From Synechococcus sp. NB0720_010 (GTDB taxonomy: Bacteria > Cyanobacteriota > Cyanobacteriia > PCC-6307 > Cyanobiaceae): DNA of 64,000 bases. The stretch covers positions 1,986,045 to 2,050,044 of the forward strand of contig NZ_CP090898.1 of assembly GCF_023078835.1 (NCBI RefSeq). Reading direction: 5' to 3'. The notes beneath the pieces were generated by a model. That model was not told the DNA's origin. It saw only the letters and a program-made list of their open reading frames with translations, and made no database searches. This document shows, piece by piece, positions 9,306-40,641 of this stretch. The first letter of the stretch is position 1; every line of letters starts with the position of its first letter. A program made the position numbers and the translations under genes.

Positions 9306-9943
9306 AAGTTGGGGGGCTGTCGCTGCGCTTCCAGATAAGCAAACACGCTCTTATCGCCCACGTCGGCCGCGGCATCCATCGGGAATTTCCGCAGGGTCAG
9401 CACCAGCAGGAGCGCCGCCTCGATGGCCAGCAGGGTCGCCGTGGCTTCTGCGCTGAGCAGATGGCTGAGGCGTCCGAGCAGCGCCAGAGGCAGCAGCAGA
9501 GTCACGCCAATGGCCTCGGGGCGGCGGAAGCAGAAAAACTCCTTGAAGCCGATCCCCGCTAGGGCGGCGAAGAAGGGACCCACGGCCCAGATCCAGCGGC
9601 TGTCTGTGCTGAGTGCGCCGGCCATTCCTTGGGGACCGGCGCTGATCAGCAGGGCGAGGAAGCCCAGGCATCCCGCCAGCCAGAACCATTGCAGGGCCCG
9701 GTGCAGGGGGCGCAGATAGATGTGAATCCAACGCAGGGCCAGGCCAACCCCTGCGGCCAAAGGCAGTAGCCAGGGCCAGATCCACGCTCCACCGAGCTGC
9801 TGCCATTGGATCAGCAGTGCGGCCTGGGCCACTGCCGCCGTGAAGAGGGCCAGCCGGTACCCCAGGACCTCGCGCCGGTCCGTGTCCGTGATGCTGTAGG
9901 TGCCATAGACACCTTCAAAGACCGGATCGGCGGCGGCGCTCAT
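9302..9943 (-). CDS. DUF2301 domain integral membrane protein
   Basis: 213 residues with about six hydrophobic helices. It has a soluble N-terminus (FEGVYGTYSITDTDRREVLGY) and the segment GIGFKEFFCFRRPEA between helices, both typical of the DUF2301 family found across cyanobacteria. Function unknown. It lies in the middle of a tightly overlapped operon: it shares 4 bases with the glutathione transferase gene upstream (9940-9943) and 4 with the ABC-F gene downstream (9302-9305). Confidence 0.8.
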   Translation of the reverse strand: MSAAADPVFEGVYGTYSITDTDRREVLGYRLALFTAAVAQAALLIQWQQLGGAWIWPWLLPLAAGVGLALRWIHIYLRPLHRALQWFWLAGCLGFLALLISAGPQGMAGALSTDSRWIWAVGPFFAALAGIGFKEFFCFRRPEAIGVTLLLPLALLGRLSHLLSAEATATLLAIEAALLLVLTLRKFPMDAAADVGDKSVFAYLEAQRQPPNL

Positions 9944-13648: not shown

Positions 13649-15394
13649 ATGACGACATCGGCACGCCATTCCCATCCCCACGCACCGCAGACCTCTAACC
13701 GCAGAACACCAGGCCGCTCAGTGGAGCCGGCGCCGCGCTCCAAGGCTCTGACGGGTGCTCAGTTTCTGGTCAAGGCGCTGGAAGCCCATGGCGTCACCCA
13801 TGTGTTTGGCATCCCCGGGGCCAAGGTCGACAGCGTTTTCACGGCCCTGCTGGATTCGCCCATCGAGCTGGTGCTCTGCCGGCATGAGCAGAACGCGGCA
13901 TTCATGGCTCAAGCCTTTGGCCGCCTGACCGGCCGCATCGGCGTCTGCCTGGCCACCTCCGGCCCTGGCGTGACCAACCTGGTGACGGGCCTGGCAACGG
14001 CGACCACCGAAGGCGATCCCGTGTTGGCGATCGGTGGTGAGGTGCCCCTGGACGATCGCTTTAAGCAGACCCATCAGTCGCTTGATGCCATCGGCCTGAT
14101 GCAGCCGGTGACGCGCTTTGCCCAGTCCGCCCTCTCGATTCACGACCTACCGGAGGTCCTGGGCAATGCCATTCGGGCGGCTGAGCAGGGCCGGCCGGGG
14201 GCAGCCTTTCTGGGGCTGCCCAAGGACGTTGGCTTGGCTGAGATCGAGGCCGACCCATCGGCGGGCTGGGGTGAGCCGATCCTTCAGGGGCCCTGCCATC
14301 CCCAGGCCCTGAGCCGGGCCGCGGAGTTGATGGCAACCCTGGAGCGGCCCCTGCTCCTTCTGGGGATGCAGGCTTCAGATCCAGATCTCAGCGAAGCGCT
14401 CCAGGCCTATGTGCGCCGCAGCGGACTGCCCTACTGCGCCACCTTCCAAGGGCCCGGGCGCTGGGTCGCGCCGGAGCAGTACGTGGGGCGGTTGGGACTC
14501 TTCCGCAACCAACCGGCGGATGCCCTGCTGAGCGCGGCCGATGGTGTCATCTGCCTCGGCTTTGATCCGGTCGAATACGACCCCAGCCTTTGGAATAGCG
14601 ATCAATCCCGCACCCTGATCAATGTCGATGTAAAGGCTGCGGACCAGGACCAAGCCTTCCTGCCCCAGGTGGAGTTGATCGGGGATCTGCAGCAGACCTT
14701 GATTGCCATGGCCACCCTGCCGCCACTGACGATCGCCCCTGATTTCCGTCAGCAGCAGCAGGCCCTCGCCGCTGAATTACGGGCGACGGCCGCCGAGGGT
14801 GCCTCCATGGGTGGAGCTGCTCCTGTTCATCCGTTGCGCCTGGTGCACGAGATCAGTTCGGTGATCACCAAGGACACCACGCTCTGCCTGGATGTCGGCT
14901 CCCACTACATCTGGATGAACCGCTATGCCCAGGCTGAGCGAGCTCGCCAGGTGCTGGTGAGCAATGGTCAGCAGACCCTGGGCGTGGCCCTGCCGTGGGC
15001 CATTGCCGCTGGGATGGTGCGCCCCGGCTGTCCCGTGGTCTCCGTCTCAGGGGACGGGGGCTTTTTGTTCACGGCGACGGAGCTGGAGACGGCGGTGCGG
15101 ATGGGCAGCCGCTTCGTGCACGTGATTTGGAACAGCCACTCGTACAACATGGTGGAGTTCCAGGAGCAGGCCCACTACGGACGGGTCTCGGGGATCCAGC
15201 TTGGCGACTACGACGTCGTCAAGTTCGCCGAGGCCTTTGGCGCGAAGGGCTACTCGATCCAGAACGCCGAGGACCTCGGACCCGTCCTGCGGGAGGCCCT
15301 GCAGCAGCCGGTACCGGTTCTGATCAATGTTCCGGTGGACTACTCCGAGAACATCCGGTTGATGCAGAACGTGCACCAGCAGTTCATCCACTGA
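13649..15394 (+). CDS. alsS: acetolactate synthase, catabolic AlsS-type (thiamine diphosphate enzyme)
   Basis: 581 residues in three ThDP-enzyme domains. The N-terminal domain begins TGAQFLVKALEAHGVTHVFGIPGAKVD with the catalytic Glu in CRHEQNAAF (E80). A central domain follows. The C-terminal domain has the ThDP-Mg motif SGDGGFLFTATELETA through NSHSYNM. The pattern GIPGAKVDSVF and FKQTHQS resembles AlsS rather than biosynthetic IlvB, and no small regulatory subunit is adjacent. It condenses two pyruvates to 2-acetolactate. The next gene, 7 bases downstream, decarboxylates acetolactate, so the pair makes acetoin. The ATG at 13649 gives a 30-residue basic leader; a GTG at 13721 is an alternative start. 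Confidence 0.88.
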   Translation: MTTSARHSHPHAPQTSNRRTPGRSVEPAPRSKALTGAQFLVKALEAHGVTHVFGIPGAKVDSVFTALLDSPIELVLCRHEQNAAFMAQAFGRLTGRIGVCLATSGPGVTNLVTGLATATTEGDPVLAIGGEVPLDDRFKQTHQSLDAIGLMQPVTRFAQSALSIHDLPEVLGNAIRAAEQGRPGAAFLGLPKDVGLAEIEADPSAGWGEPILQGPCHPQALSRAAELMATLERPLLLLGMQASDPDLSEALQAYVRRSGLPYCATFQGPGRWVAPEQYVGRLGLFRNQPADALLSAADGVICLGFDPVEYDPSLWNSDQSRTLINVDVKAADQDQAFLPQVELIGDLQQTLIAMATLPPLTIAPDFRQQQQALAAELRATAAEGASMGGAAPVHPLRLVHEISSVITKDTTLCLDVGSHYIWMNRYAQAERARQVLVSNGQQTLGVALPWAIAAGMVRPGCPVVSVSGDGGFLFTATELETAVRMGSRFVHVIWNSHSYNMVEFQEQAHYGRVSGIQLGDYDVVKFAEAFGAKGYSIQNAEDLGPVLREALQQPVPVLINVPVDYSENIRLMQNVHQQFIH

Positions 15395-29903: not shown

Positions 29904-29926
29904 GGATCCAGGTGAACCTTGGATCC
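29904..29926 (+). other. hairpin immediately preceding the tatD ATG
   Basis: GGATCCAGG (29904-29912) pairs with CTTGGATCC (29918-29926), including one G-T wobble, giving a 9-bp stem with a 5-base loop. It ends exactly one base before the ATG at 29927 and buries an alternative GTG. It lacks a downstream U-tract, so it is not a normal terminator. Confidence 0.6.
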
Positions 29927-30748
29927 ATGGCAGCTGCCGTCGCTCTCGAGAGCCTTCCGGCTCCTTTGATTGACAGCCACTGCCACATCGTCTTTCGAAA
30001 TTTCGACGAAGACTTGGAGGAGGTTGCTCAACGCTGGCGTGATGCCGGTGTGGGGCGCCTCCTTCACGCATGTGTCGAGCCTTCTGAGATTCCGGCGATT
30101 CGAGCGCTGGCCGATCGCTTCCCCGAGCTTCGCTACTCCGTTGGCGTTCATCCTCTGGATCCGGAGCATTGGGCTTCCAACACGCAGCAGGTGTTGCGCG
30201 AGGCGGCTCAAGCTGACCCCAGGGTCGTGGCGATCGGCGAGCTCGGTTTGGATCTGTTCCGCGACAACAATCTCGAGCAACAGCTGGCGATGCTCCGGCC
30301 CCAGCTGGACCTGGCGGTGGAGCTGGATCTGCCCGTGATCATTCACTGCCGCGATGCCGCTGAACCGATGCTTGCCGAGTTGCGCGAGCGTGCTGAGCGG
30401 GGTGCCTGCCCTAAGGGCGTGATGCACTGCTGGAGCGGCACTCCCGAGGAAATGCAGGGGTTCCTCGAGTTGGGGCTCTACATCAGCTTTAGCGGCAATG
30501 TGACCTTCCCGAAGGCCACCGACACCCATGCCTGCGCCCAAGCGGTTCCCGCGGATCGATATCTCGTGGAGACCGACTGCCCGTTCTTGGCGCCCGTGCC
30601 GCGACGGGGCAAGCGCAACGAGCCTTCCTATGTGATGGCTGTGGCGGAGCGAGTGGCAGTCCTGCGCCAGGAGCCGCTGCAGACCGTCGCCTTACAGAGC
30701 ACCCGCAACGCCTGTGCACTGTTTGGACCCGCTCTTCACAATGTATGA
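29927..30748 (+). CDS. tatD: TatD family metal-dependent hydrolase
   Basis: 273 residues from ATG 29927. Metal ligands begin LIDSHCH (H18, H20), then GELGLDLFRDN, HCRDAAEPM, MHCWSG and ETDCPFLAPVPRRGKRNEP, all characteristic of TatD. TatD proteins are magnesium-dependent 3'-5' nucleases with deoxyribonuclease activity. A GTG at 29912 would add five residues but lies inside a hairpin. The order rpsT-tatD-rpoB is recurrent in picocyanobacteria. The rpoB promoter-like -10 overlaps the stop codon. Confidence 0.93.
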   Translation: MAAAVALESLPAPLIDSHCHIVFRNFDEDLEEVAQRWRDAGVGRLLHACVEPSEIPAIRALADRFPELRYSVGVHPLDPEHWASNTQQVLREAAQADPRVVAIGELGLDLFRDNNLEQQLAMLRPQLDLAVELDLPVIIHCRDAAEPMLAELRERAERGACPKGVMHCWSGTPEEMQGFLELGLYISFSGNVTFPKATDTHACAQAVPADRYLVETDCPFLAPVPRRGKRNEPSYVMAVAERVAVLRQEPLQTVALQSTRNACALFGPALHNV

Positions 30749-30749
30749 T
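30722..30749 (+). promoter_or_regulatory. possible promoter for rpoB
   Basis: A good -10 hexamer TATGAT (30744-30749) lies at the end of tatD with a weak -35 candidate TTTGGA (30722-30727) 16 bases upstream. If used, it would give a leader of about 305 nt before rpoB. Confidence 0.35.
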
Positions 30750-31062
30750 GTTTCATTGGCCTGGCAGCGAGTCGTGATTTATCCGTGCTCGTTGCAGCCC
30801 GAAAGCGCTCGCCAGGGATCTGGTGAGTTAGCCCATGACCAGTGGTGCGTTGTCTTTCCGGTGCGAGTTGTCGTTCCCTGCGGTGTTCAAGCGATCTGAA
30901 TAGGCGCCCCAGCTGGCCAGTCGCTCCCGAGAGGGACGGCTGGCTCTGTCGTCTGTGTGGTGATGTCGCGCTGACATCCCCCTTCGTCTTGATCTCCGCC
31001 TGGTTCTGAAACTGCTGTCCAGGCCCTCCGTTCCGTTTCACCCGTTCCTGCAGGTTCACCGC
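30750..31062 (+). promoter_or_regulatory. structured 5' leader region of rpoB
   Basis: This 313-base gap contains no convincing gene. Three hairpins are visible on the plus strand. The first is an 8-bp stem at 30808-30827 (CTCGCCAG with CTGGTGAG, loop GGAT). The second is a 12-bp stem with one bulged C at 30916-30944, capped by a GAGA tetraloop. The third is a 6-bp stem at 30962-30978 (GATGTC with GACATC). None has a U-tract, so they are not simple terminators. Confidence 0.5.
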
Positions 31063-34000
31063 ATGAGCAGCGCGATTCAGGTCGCCAAGACCGCCACTTA
31101 CCTCCCCGACCTGGTGGAGGTGCAGCGCGCGAGCTTCAAATGGTTTCTGGAGAAGGGCCTGATCGAGGAGCTGGAGAGCTTCTCCCCGATCACCGACTAC
31201 ACCGGCAAGCTTGAGCTGCACTTCATCGGTAGCGAGTACCGCCTGAAGCGCCCTCGCCACGACGTGGAAGAGGCCAAGCGCCGTGACGCGACCTTCGCGT
31301 CCCAGATGTATGTGACCTGCCGCCTGGTCAACAAGGAGACCGGCGAAATCAAGGAGCAGGAAGTGTTCATCGGGGAACTGCCCCTGATGACCGAGCGCGG
31401 CACGTTCATCATCAACGGCGCCGAGCGCGTGATCGTGAACCAGATCGTGCGTTCACCCGGCGTCTATTTCAAAGACGAGCAGGACAAGAACGGCCGTAAG
31501 ACCTTTAACGCCAGCCTGATCCCCAACCGTGGCGCCTGGCTGAAGTTTGAAACCGACAAGAACGACCTGCTGCACGTTCGCGTCGACAAGACCCGCAAGA
31601 TCAACGCCCACGTGTTGATGCGGGCCATCGGCCTGTCCGACAACGATGTCCTCGACAAGCTGCGCCACCCCGAGTACTACCAAAAGTCCATCGAGGCGGC
31701 GAACGACGAAGGCATCGCTTCAGAAGACCAGGCTCTGCTTGAGCTCTACAAGAAGCTGCGTCCGGGTGAACCCCCCTCGGTGAGCGGTGGTCAGACCCTG
31801 CTGCACAGCCGCTTCTTTGATCCCAAGCGCTACGACCTCGGCCGGGTTGGTCGCTACAAGATCAACAAGAAGCTGCGCCTGACCATCCCCGATGCGACGC
31901 GCACCCTCACCCCTGAGGACGTCCTCAGCACGATCGATTACCTGATCAACCTTGAGCTCGATGTGGGTGGCGCCACCCTCGATGACATCGACCACCTCGG
32001 TAACCGCCGCGTTCGCTCCGTGGGCGAATTGCTGCAGAACCAGGTCCGCGTTGGTCTGAACCGCCTCGAGCGGATCATTAAAGAGCGGATGACCGTTGGT
32101 GAGACCGAGAGTCTGACCCCGGCCCAGCTGGTGAACCCCAAGCCCCTGGTGGCTGCGATCAAGGAGTTCTTCGGCTCCAGCCAGCTGAGCCAGTTCATGG
32201 ATCAGACGAATCCCCTGGCTGAGCTCACCCACAAGCGCCGCATCAGCGCCCTGGGCCCAGGCGGTCTGACCCGCGAGCGCGCTGGCTTTGCCGTGCGCGA
32301 CATCCACCCTTCCCACTACGGCCGGATTTGCCCGATCGAGACCCCTGAAGGCCCGAATGCCGGTCTGATTGGCTCCTTGGCCACCCACGCCCGGGTGAAC
32401 GAGTACGGCTTCATCGAGACCCCGTTCTGGAAGGTGGAGGACGGCATCGTCCTCAAGCAGGGTGACCCCCTCTACCTCTCGGCGGATCTCGAGGACGAGT
32501 GCCGTGTGGCTCCTGGCGACGTCGCCACCGACGCCGATGGCCGGATCAAGGCCGACCTGGTTCCCGTGCGCTACCGCCAGGACTTTGAGACCGTGCCCCC
32601 CGAGCAGGTCGACTACGTGCAGCTCTCACCGGTTCAGGTGATCTCGGTTGCAACCTCGCTGATCCCTTTCCTCGAGCACGACGACGCCAACCGGGCCCTG
32701 ATGGGTTCGAACATGCAACGTCAGGCTGTGCCTCTGCTGCGCCCTGAGCGTCCCCTGGTCGGCACCGGTCTGGAGACCCAGGTCGCCCGTGACTCGGGCA
32801 TGGTCCCCATCACCACCGTCAACGGCACGGTCAGCTTTGTCGATGCCACCGCGATCGTCATTCGCGATGAAGAGGGCAACGACCACACCCACTACCTCCA
32901 GAAGTACCAGCGCTCCAACCAGGACACCTGCCTCAACCATCGTCCGATCGTCAAACTTGGCGATCAGGTGATCGCCGGTCAGGTCCTGGCCAACGGTTCG
33001 GCCTGTGAGGGTGGTGAAATCGCCCTGGGTCAGAACGTTCTGATCGCCTACATGCCCTGGGAGGGCTACAACTACGAGGACGCGATTCTCGTTTCCGAGC
33101 GCCTGGTGCGCGACGACCTCTACACCTCGGTGCACATCGAGAAGTACGAGATCGAAGCCCGTCAGACCAAGCTTGGACCTGAGGAGATCACCCGCGAGAT
33201 CCCCAACGTTGCCGAGGAGAGCCTGGGCAACCTGGACGAGATGGGCATCATCCGCATTGGTGCCTATGTCGAAAGCGGCGACATCCTGGTCGGCAAGGTG
33301 ACCCCCAAGGGTGAGTCGGACCAGCCCCCGGAAGAGAAGCTGCTGCGCGCGATCTTCGGTGAGAAGGCCCGCGATGTCCGCGACAACTCCCTGCGCGTTC
33401 CCAGCACCGAGCGTGGCCGTGTGGTCGACGTCCGGATCTATACCCGCGAGCAGGGCGATGAGCTGCCGCCCGGCGCAAACATGGTGGTTCGGGTCTACGT
33501 GGCCCAGCGCCGCAAGATCCAGGTCGGCGACAAGATGGCCGGCCGCCACGGCAACAAGGGCATCATCAGCCGCATCCTTCCCCTGGAGGACATGCCCTAT
33601 CTGCCCGACGGCACCCCGATCGACATCGTGCTCAACCCCCTGGGTGTGCCGAGCCGGATGAACGTCGGACAGGTCTTCGAGTGCTTGATGGGCTGGGCTG
33701 CATCCCACCTGGATTGCCGCGTCAAGGTGGTGCCCTTCGACGAAATGCACGGTCCTGAGACCTCGAAGAACACCGTTCAGGCCTATCTCGAGGCGGCCAA
33801 GTCCCAGCCCGGTAAGGACTGGGTCTACAACCCTGACAACCCCGGCAAGATCCAGTTGATCGATGGCCGGACCGGCGAGGCCTTTGACCAGCCCGTGACC
33901 GTGGGCTACGCCCACATCCTCAAGCTGGTTCACCTGGTGGACGACAAGATCCACGCTCGCTCCACGGGTCCCTACTCCCTGGTCACCCAGCAGCCCCTGG

Positions 34001-34353
34001 GTGGTAAGGCCCAGCAGGGCGGCCAGCGTCTGGGTGAGATGGAGGTCTGGGCTCTCGAGGCCTACGGCGCCGCCTACACCCTGCAGGAACTGCTCACCGT
34101 CAAGTCCGACGACATGCAGGGCCGCAACGAGGCGCTCAACGCCATCGTCAAGGGCAAGCCGATTCCCCGTCCTGGCACCCCCGAGTCCTTCAAGGTGCTG
34201 ATGCGCGAGCTTCAGTCCCTGGGTCTCGACATCGCGGTCTACACCGATGCGGGTGAGGAAGTCGACCTCATGCAGGACGTGAATCCTCGCCGCAGCACCC
34301 CCAACCGACCCACCTACGAATCCCTCGGCGTCGCGGATTACGACGACGACTGA
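31063..34353 (+). CDS. rpoB: DNA-directed RNA polymerase subunit beta
   Basis: 1096 residues, the usual cyanobacterial length, shorter than E. coli because lineage inserts are missing. Landmarks include the rifampicin-region [22 protein letters not shown] (about 370-390), [33 protein letters not shown], and near the C-terminus [26 protein letters not shown]. Catalytic core subunit binding DNA/RNA hybrid. It has a long structured leader and is followed 78 bases later by rpoC1. Confidence 0.99.

Positions 34354-34431: not shown

Positions 34432-40641
<6,210 letters not shown>

Follow-up and report, generated by a model that had tools for sequence, protein, structure and literature searches.

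A candidate cis-acting leader with recurrent RNA structure upstream of rpoB-rpoC1 in picocyanobacteria

Structured rpoB leaders have precedents elsewhere, and a paper of 2005 lists a related one, with neither its structure nor its function described in the text. In E. coli, a hairpin ahead of rpoB, the rpoBC attenuator, is thought to limit transcription of the polymerase genes, as restated in PMC6181997, and Lacto-rpoB (RF01709) is reported as a candidate structured RNA of Lactobacillales (Weinberg et al. 2010; PMC2864571). For picocyanobacteria, Axmann et al. (2005; PMC1242208) tabulate cluster 245, "rpoBC operon leader", from MIT 9313 and WH 8102, which is predicted to be structured over 259 columns with Z values of −3.7 and −4.53; according to the text, elements of this kind were not studied by experiment, and the experiment column of the table carries a dash that the legend leaves undefined. 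In addition, a figure of PMC5607370 displays primary reads over rpoB of Prochlorococcus MED4, with a legend that gives no distance from the start codon. We found no further described picocyanobacterial rpoB leader in a library of open-access papers. Here we describe the region before rpoB of Synechococcus sp. NB0720_010, based on a window of 64,000 nucleotides (the whole stretch of DNA analysed) from its 2.41-Mb, single-contig genome.

The tatD-rpoB interval and its predicted promoter

On the plus strand of the window, tatD, encoding a TatD-family nuclease (29912–30748; NCBIfam TIGR00010, 249 bits), is followed by rpoB (31063–34353; TIGR02013, 1674.8 bits), which lies on the same strand directly downstream of the leader, and by cyanobacterial rpoC1 (34432–36336; TIGR02387, 1309.8 bits). 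The tatD stop codon occupies 30746–30748 and the rpoB ATG starts at 31063, leaving a gap of 314 bases, one more than the 313 counted in the original prediction. A search for phage relatives of the gap gave no match. The first 200 residues of RpoB (31063–31662) are 100% identical in the genomes of the genus with a full-length match, and also across several further genera. Elsewhere in the window, ARAGORN calls a 92-base tRNA-Gly on the minus strand (9709–9800) that is missing from the Rfam gathering search and is possibly a false call.

The genus search covered 25 genomes, including the source genome. In all, we collected 199 rpoB upstream regions from relatives and GTDB genomes and oriented them on rpoB. 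Dropping one locus without an rpoB start (L024), 31 distant cyanobacteria (L089–L119), and one locus without tatD (L079) leaves, by subtraction, 166 loci, 142 of which fit the start-site pattern and yield 132 distinct leaders. The other 24 loci, which do not fit the pattern, are largely high-light-type Prochlorococcus (an ecotype label that we assigned from genome size and sequence), and thus counts over the 132 leaders under-represent lineages without it. A tatD-like frame lies upstream of rpoB in the picocyanobacterial loci, except for L079, where the sequence covers only 155 bases, and the tatD-rpoB gap of these loci ranges from 131 to 492 bases.

At the end of tatD there is a predicted −10 element, TATGAT (30744–30749, plus strand; within TGTATGAT), which is conserved in the genus and in most picocyanobacterial loci. 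Specifically, TGTA[T/A]GAT, followed after 5–7 bases by ATTGG, is conserved in the genus, and TGTA[T/A]GAT or close variants occur in most other picocyanobacterial loci. The element overlaps the tatD stop codon in freshwater forms and is located up to ~55 bases downstream of it in marine forms; the motif therefore keeps its place independently of the end of tatD, supporting its identity as a −10 element. The spacing to this element puts the predicted transcription start at the A of ATTGG (30755, plus strand). Downstream of the hairpin P3 (see below), none of the 23 congeners has a TAnnnT between P3 and −15, where shuffles would give 8.2, and only 6 of the 108 GC-rich leaders have one, against 48.1 expected, although the shuffles keep base composition only and a general shortage of TA may contribute. 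Given the conserved upstream element and the lack of TAnnnT after P3, all hairpins most likely lie within an rpoB leader of ~308 nt with its predicted start at 30755.

Two further observations concern promoter-like sequences. The near-absence of TAnnnT in 30946–31047 of the window and in its relatives looks as if spurious −10 elements were counter-selected, a TA shortage being another possible source. Five loci (L049, L143, L157, L160, and L168) carry, by eye, a perfect TTGACA ~19 bases before the −10 element, unlike the genus of the window.

Hairpins of the leader and their covariation

The original prediction reported three hairpins within 30808–30978, all of which are present as described: an 8-bp hairpin, termed H1 here (30808–30827; CTCGCCAG-GGAT-CTGGTGAG), a 12-bp hairpin, termed P3 (30915–30945; 13 pairs with the outer G-U, a bulged C at 30924, and a GAGA loop), and a 6-bp hairpin (30962–30978; GATGTC-GCGCT-GACATC). 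It is also correct that none of them is followed by a U-tract. The reported span holds the three hairpins and leaves out the promoter element, a further hairpin, P1 (30764–30795, plus strand), and the 3′ partner of a long-range helix, P0; the parts that are likely operative, namely the conserved core, P0, P1, and the promoter element, were absent from that prediction.

When the window's leader is folded together with 60 coding bases, the pairs tested in each of the three reported hairpins have ensemble probabilities of at least 0.97. The gap was shuffled 1000 times with dinucleotides preserved: 5 of the shuffles matched the best local hairpin, 28 the second best, and 12 the total local energy, and none was as stable as the top three hairpins together. 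The top three by local stability are P3, P1, and H1, while the 6-bp hairpin ranks fifth. A 361-nt stretch as a whole folds only moderately better than its shuffles do (z −1.86; 7 of 100 reached its stability). The presence of the hairpins is confirmed, and they exceed chance.

The covariation of P3 was assessed with A1, an alignment of 39 chosen relatives built without structure, and with R1, a covariance model of the core and P3. Both favour conserved members and match them by construction, since they derive from 39 chosen leaders with a clear core. In A1, 89.6% of the P3 cells are paired, compared with 48–56% when the partner is slid by 1–3 columns, and 10 of the 11 pairs have changes on both sides, amounting to 43 such cells versus 7.9 in shuffled data. 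Of the 132 leader-bearing loci, 100 were scanned with R1, and 92 of these gave a sense match at E ≤ 0.01, the eight without one being L049, L153, L157, L160, L168, L176, L193, and L199. The matches listed number 101, of which 9 are antisense; the antisense matches were kept in the 101-match count and excluded from the 92-sequence test. In the model-fitted alignment of these 101 listed matches (9 antisense), 181 cells of P3 have both-side changes versus 56.7. Under a whole-helix null in which the tree and the substitutions of every branch are preserved, the covariation score of P3 was reached in 0 of 200 replicates for A1 and 0 of 100 for the 92 model-fitted sequences. Quite different P3 sequences occupy the same place in L053, L156, L194, and L187, while the best hairpin of four AT-rich Prochlorococcus leaders (L056, L058, L060, and L061) lies elsewhere and is not a P3. 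The alignments strongly support a P3 that recurs across picocyanobacteria with its sequence replaced.

Within the genus, P1, H1, and P3 together have 93.5% of cells paired in 23 congeners, compared with 34–54% for slid partners, and 31 both-side changes versus 10.7. Seven of the eight positions of P1 pair in 22–23 of the 23 congeners, and the eighth pairs in 15. The pairs of H1 are formed in 94.0% of cells, with both-side changes in 4 of its 8 pairs; H1 is missing in L018 and L020 and was not seen in the other genera read. With the tree-aware null, the congener helix covariation score was reached in 5 of 200 replicates for P1, 0 of 200 for H1, and 0 of 200 for P3, and the G statistic in 16, 5, and 3 of 200, respectively, making P1 the weakest of the three. 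Beyond the genus, a hairpin at the place of P1 that is equalled by at most 1 of 20 shuffles occurs in 42 of the 132 leaders, and P1 shrinks to four pairs in several freshwater genera. RNAalifold on whole-leader alignments recovered P1 and P3 in the genus, along with a long-range pairing that is unclear, and almost no structure in the marine set. Only the window (L010), L008, L009, and L021 have a clear 6-bp hairpin, and some others have, by eye, an unrelated hairpin at its place.

The covariation check proposed with the original prediction, in at least ten relatives, thus comes out positive at the level of whole helices for P3 and H1 and negative for single pairs; the 6-bp hairpin is not conserved. 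Our own R-scape-like test of single column pairs gave no sensible pair at E < 0.05 in MAFFT whole-leader clade alignments, A1, or A2, the best E values (0.23 for the MAFFT clade alignments and 0.57 for A1/A2) both belonging to columns of non-standard pairs. Judged by these comparisons, P3 is family-wide, H1 is specific to the genus, with good to moderate support for H1 and P1, and the 6-bp hairpin is probably incidental.

The conserved core and the long-range helix P0

A conserved core precedes P3 (30854–30904, plus strand), with the covariance-model match covering 30854–30959 and a consensus near TTGTCGACGTCAGC.GTTCTGA..CGAG.TC. The core scores at least 17 in 92 of the 132 leaders, starting 36–60 nt before the hairpin. 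In the window's own genome, R1 has one strong match, at this locus (70.6 bits), the next reaching 17.3 bits. Among 61 genomes of the order, all of one family and several of which supplied sequences to R1, 36 have a match at E ≤ 0.1, and in 35 of these the best one lies just before rpoB; the only R1 match of G108 (E 0.006) is off its rpoB contig. The rpoB leader of G072 is matched at E 1.8e-18, its leader (L187) having been among the R1 sequences. R1 has no match in the other 25 of the 61 genomes, including many high-light-type Prochlorococcus (g13, g38, and g9), suggesting that the core and P3 are dispensable in most of the sampled members of that type. A search of 34 rpoB regions, 31 of them from distant cyanobacteria, gave no copy, with a best score of 10.4 bits (E 0.4, L069), and Rfam 15, including 6S RNA, the Yfr RNAs, and ribosomal leaders, has no match in 30650–31150 at E values up to 5.

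Several candidates were tried and rejected. Two secondary R1 matches in relatives, considered as paralogous copies, lie inside an opposite-strand long frame resembling lysyl-tRNA synthetase (L218) and at the apparent terminator of another gene (L219). A hairpin GUCAG/CUGAC in the core is visible by eye in part of the marine sequences and broken in others. Indels of one base within the conserved portion of the alignment of the genus argue against a small protein in the gap.

The extreme 5′ end of the predicted transcript contains GGCCTGG (30758–30764, plus strand), which is complementary to CCAGGCC (31019–31025, plus strand), ~40 nt before rpoB. In an otherwise variable region, 22 of the 23 congeners retain the motif CAGG[CT]C, where 0.4 would be expected; a neighbouring control region has it in 4 of 23, and across all 132 leaders it is present in 57 (2.4 expected). 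To probe co-evolution, we set the duplex energy formed by each 5′ end and its own 3′ segment against the energies of that end with the 3′ segments of other species; the 5′ strand co-evolves with −58 to −25. With 125 leaders the z value is −5.4, and with the 41 distinct 5′ ends it is −4.2, versus −0.6, −0.9, −2.2 (region −126 to −93), and +0.4 for controls; after thinning to 100 leaders it is −6.1, while the remaining 31 segment pairs span −3.3 to +1.5, and it is this comparison with other segment pairs that matters most, since the z values are uncorrected for relatedness. P0 is invisible when −58 to −25 is split at −41, inside CCAGGCC, and is seen in the uncut rescan. In some Prochlorococcus (L051 and L192; GTCTTGGG/CCCAAGAT) the pairing is kept with changed sequence, and in some genera it is poor. 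Counting against P0 is its probability of ~0.06 in the window's own ensemble, and a local hairpin, GCCTGG/CCAGGC (30998–31024, plus strand; from a local-hairpin scan), would compete with it. Stems of at least 6 pairs, a weak discriminator, are found in 102 of 132 leaders versus 76 of 132 for a control region and 41.5 for shuffles. By the duplex-energy test, the two strands of P0 co-evolve. A pairing between the 5′ end and the Shine-Dalgarno block is unsupported (z −0.56).

Next to the start codon lies a ribosome-binding block, CCCGTTCCTGCAGGTTCACCGC (31041–31062, plus strand), which is near-invariant within the genus and also strongly conserved across many freshwater genera, beyond Shine-Dalgarno needs. 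An upstream extension of RpoB through CCCGTTCCTGCAGGTTCACCGC was rejected; the spacing of the block to the ATG shifts by one base in some genera, and it is therefore not an extension of the reading frame. In one leader (L129, from G081), the stretch between P3 and rpoB holds, by eye, about five tandem copies around CTTCGGCCAAA, small self-complementary hairpins that fill the leader.

Function of the leader and relation to known systems

We favour, with a probability of roughly 0.55, the combined statement that the region is a cis-acting structured leader of rpoB-rpoC1 in which P3 serves as an attenuator or pause; the value reflects high confidence in the leader, moderate confidence in attenuation or pausing, and RNA processing as the main rival. 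Transcription would start at ~30755 from the −10 element at the end of tatD, as its conservation suggests, and the ~308-nt leader would fold into P1, the genus-specific H1, a core that looks mostly single-stranded, and the strong P3. P0 would pair the extreme 5′ end with a site ~40 nt before the start codon, closing the domain and leaving the ribosome-binding block outside. P3 may weakly attenuate the elongating polymerase or make it pause, and the core, contacted by protein, polymerase, or another signal, may set how much transcription passes, a control that would match polymerase supply to demand. The leader thus conceived probably tunes the amount of polymerase made. The original prediction had suggested an attenuation or autoregulatory leader or a separate small RNA. 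The regulatory leader is supported by the −10 element, the covarying hairpins, the one convincing genomic copy, the presence of rpoB and rpoC1 downstream, and the absence of any other promoter sign between P3 and rpoB; attenuation as its mechanism is our inference, and the separate small RNA is less likely.

The region directly after P3 bears on the mechanism. It has no U-tract in the window, where the tail is CTGTCGTCTG, or in most freshwater relatives, and simple termination is thus unsupported in this strain. P3 is not among the terminator-like sites of a scan of the window, in which sites with T-runs exist elsewhere (for example 15037–15062). Several marine or low-GC relatives do have T-runs after P3 (TTTTGCTG in L184 and L189, TTTTGGG in L194, and TTTTTATC in L199), and the T content of the eight bases after P3 is in small excess both in 23 low-GC leaders (3.5 versus 2.9 expected) and in the 109 others (2.6 versus 1.9 expected). 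A scan of 74 leaders for anti-terminator segments brought out P3 alone clearly (z −18.6); the next pair, core28 with the P3 tail (z −3.8), is within the spread of unrelated pairs (sd 2.6). A more specific version is speculative and rather doubtful: together, the core and the domain closed by P0 would act as a sensor, for instance one bound by RNA polymerase or an elongation factor, that switches P3 between pausing or terminating and read-through; if true, it would amount to RNA-level autoregulation of RNA polymerase in picocyanobacteria.

The same long stem, kept while its sequence is replaced and lacking a U-tract here, would also be expected of a processing or stability element, such as an RNase III or RNase E site by which the rpoB mRNA is set apart or protected. 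A title cited in Axmann et al. (2005; PMC1242208), which names both attenuation and processing for the E. coli rplJL-rpoBC unit, points the same way, whereas the T-runs after P3 in several relatives speak against processing, which we regard as possible at perhaps one chance in a handful. The promoter, the structured body, and a terminator-like hairpin ~190 nt downstream could instead mark a separate small RNA that ends at P3, with rpoB transcribed from elsewhere. However, the scarcity of TAnnnT between P3 and −15 in the congeners and GC-rich leaders, the link that P0 makes between the 5′ end and a site near the rpoB start, the missing U-tract, and the tie of the element to rpoB in nearly every genome with a model match make such an RNA unlikely.

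Two simpler explanations fare worse. P3 lies downstream of tatD on the same strand and might serve as the terminator of tatD transcription, the rest of the leader being unimportant; the conserved −10 element between tatD and P3 argues against this, and the core, P1, and P0 would be left unexplained, making it very improbable. The original prediction offered as its alternative that GC-rich intergenic DNA folds by chance, which agrees with the only mildly unusual folding energy of the whole region and with the lack of conservation of the 6-bp hairpin. Local stability relative to shuffles and covariation speak against it. Chance is refuted where P3 is concerned, is highly improbable for H1 and P1, and may account for the 6-bp hairpin; as an explanation of the whole, it is hardly credible.

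The supply of core polymerase limits all transcription, and picocyanobacteria have few regulators. A leader architecture shared by freshwater and many marine lineages, and without an Rfam match, offers a testable handle on the control of polymerase levels in these abundant phototrophs.

Among the described systems, the E. coli attenuator between rplL and rpoB resembles the present leader in placing a hairpin ahead of rpoB, as P3 is here, but it lies inside a ribosomal-protein operon, whereas the leader of the window follows tatD, has its own promoter element, and contains a P3 without U-tract. Lacto-rpoB (RF01709) is likewise a candidate structured RNA, named after rpoB, but is listed for Lactobacillales, and its covariance model has no match in 30650–31150 at E values up to 5. 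Cluster 245 (PMC1242208) is, like the window's leader, a region before rpoB that is predicted to be structured, and it comes from two marine picocyanobacteria; it comprises two sequences and no freshwater forms, and the text of the paper describes no structure, covariation, promoter, or function for it.
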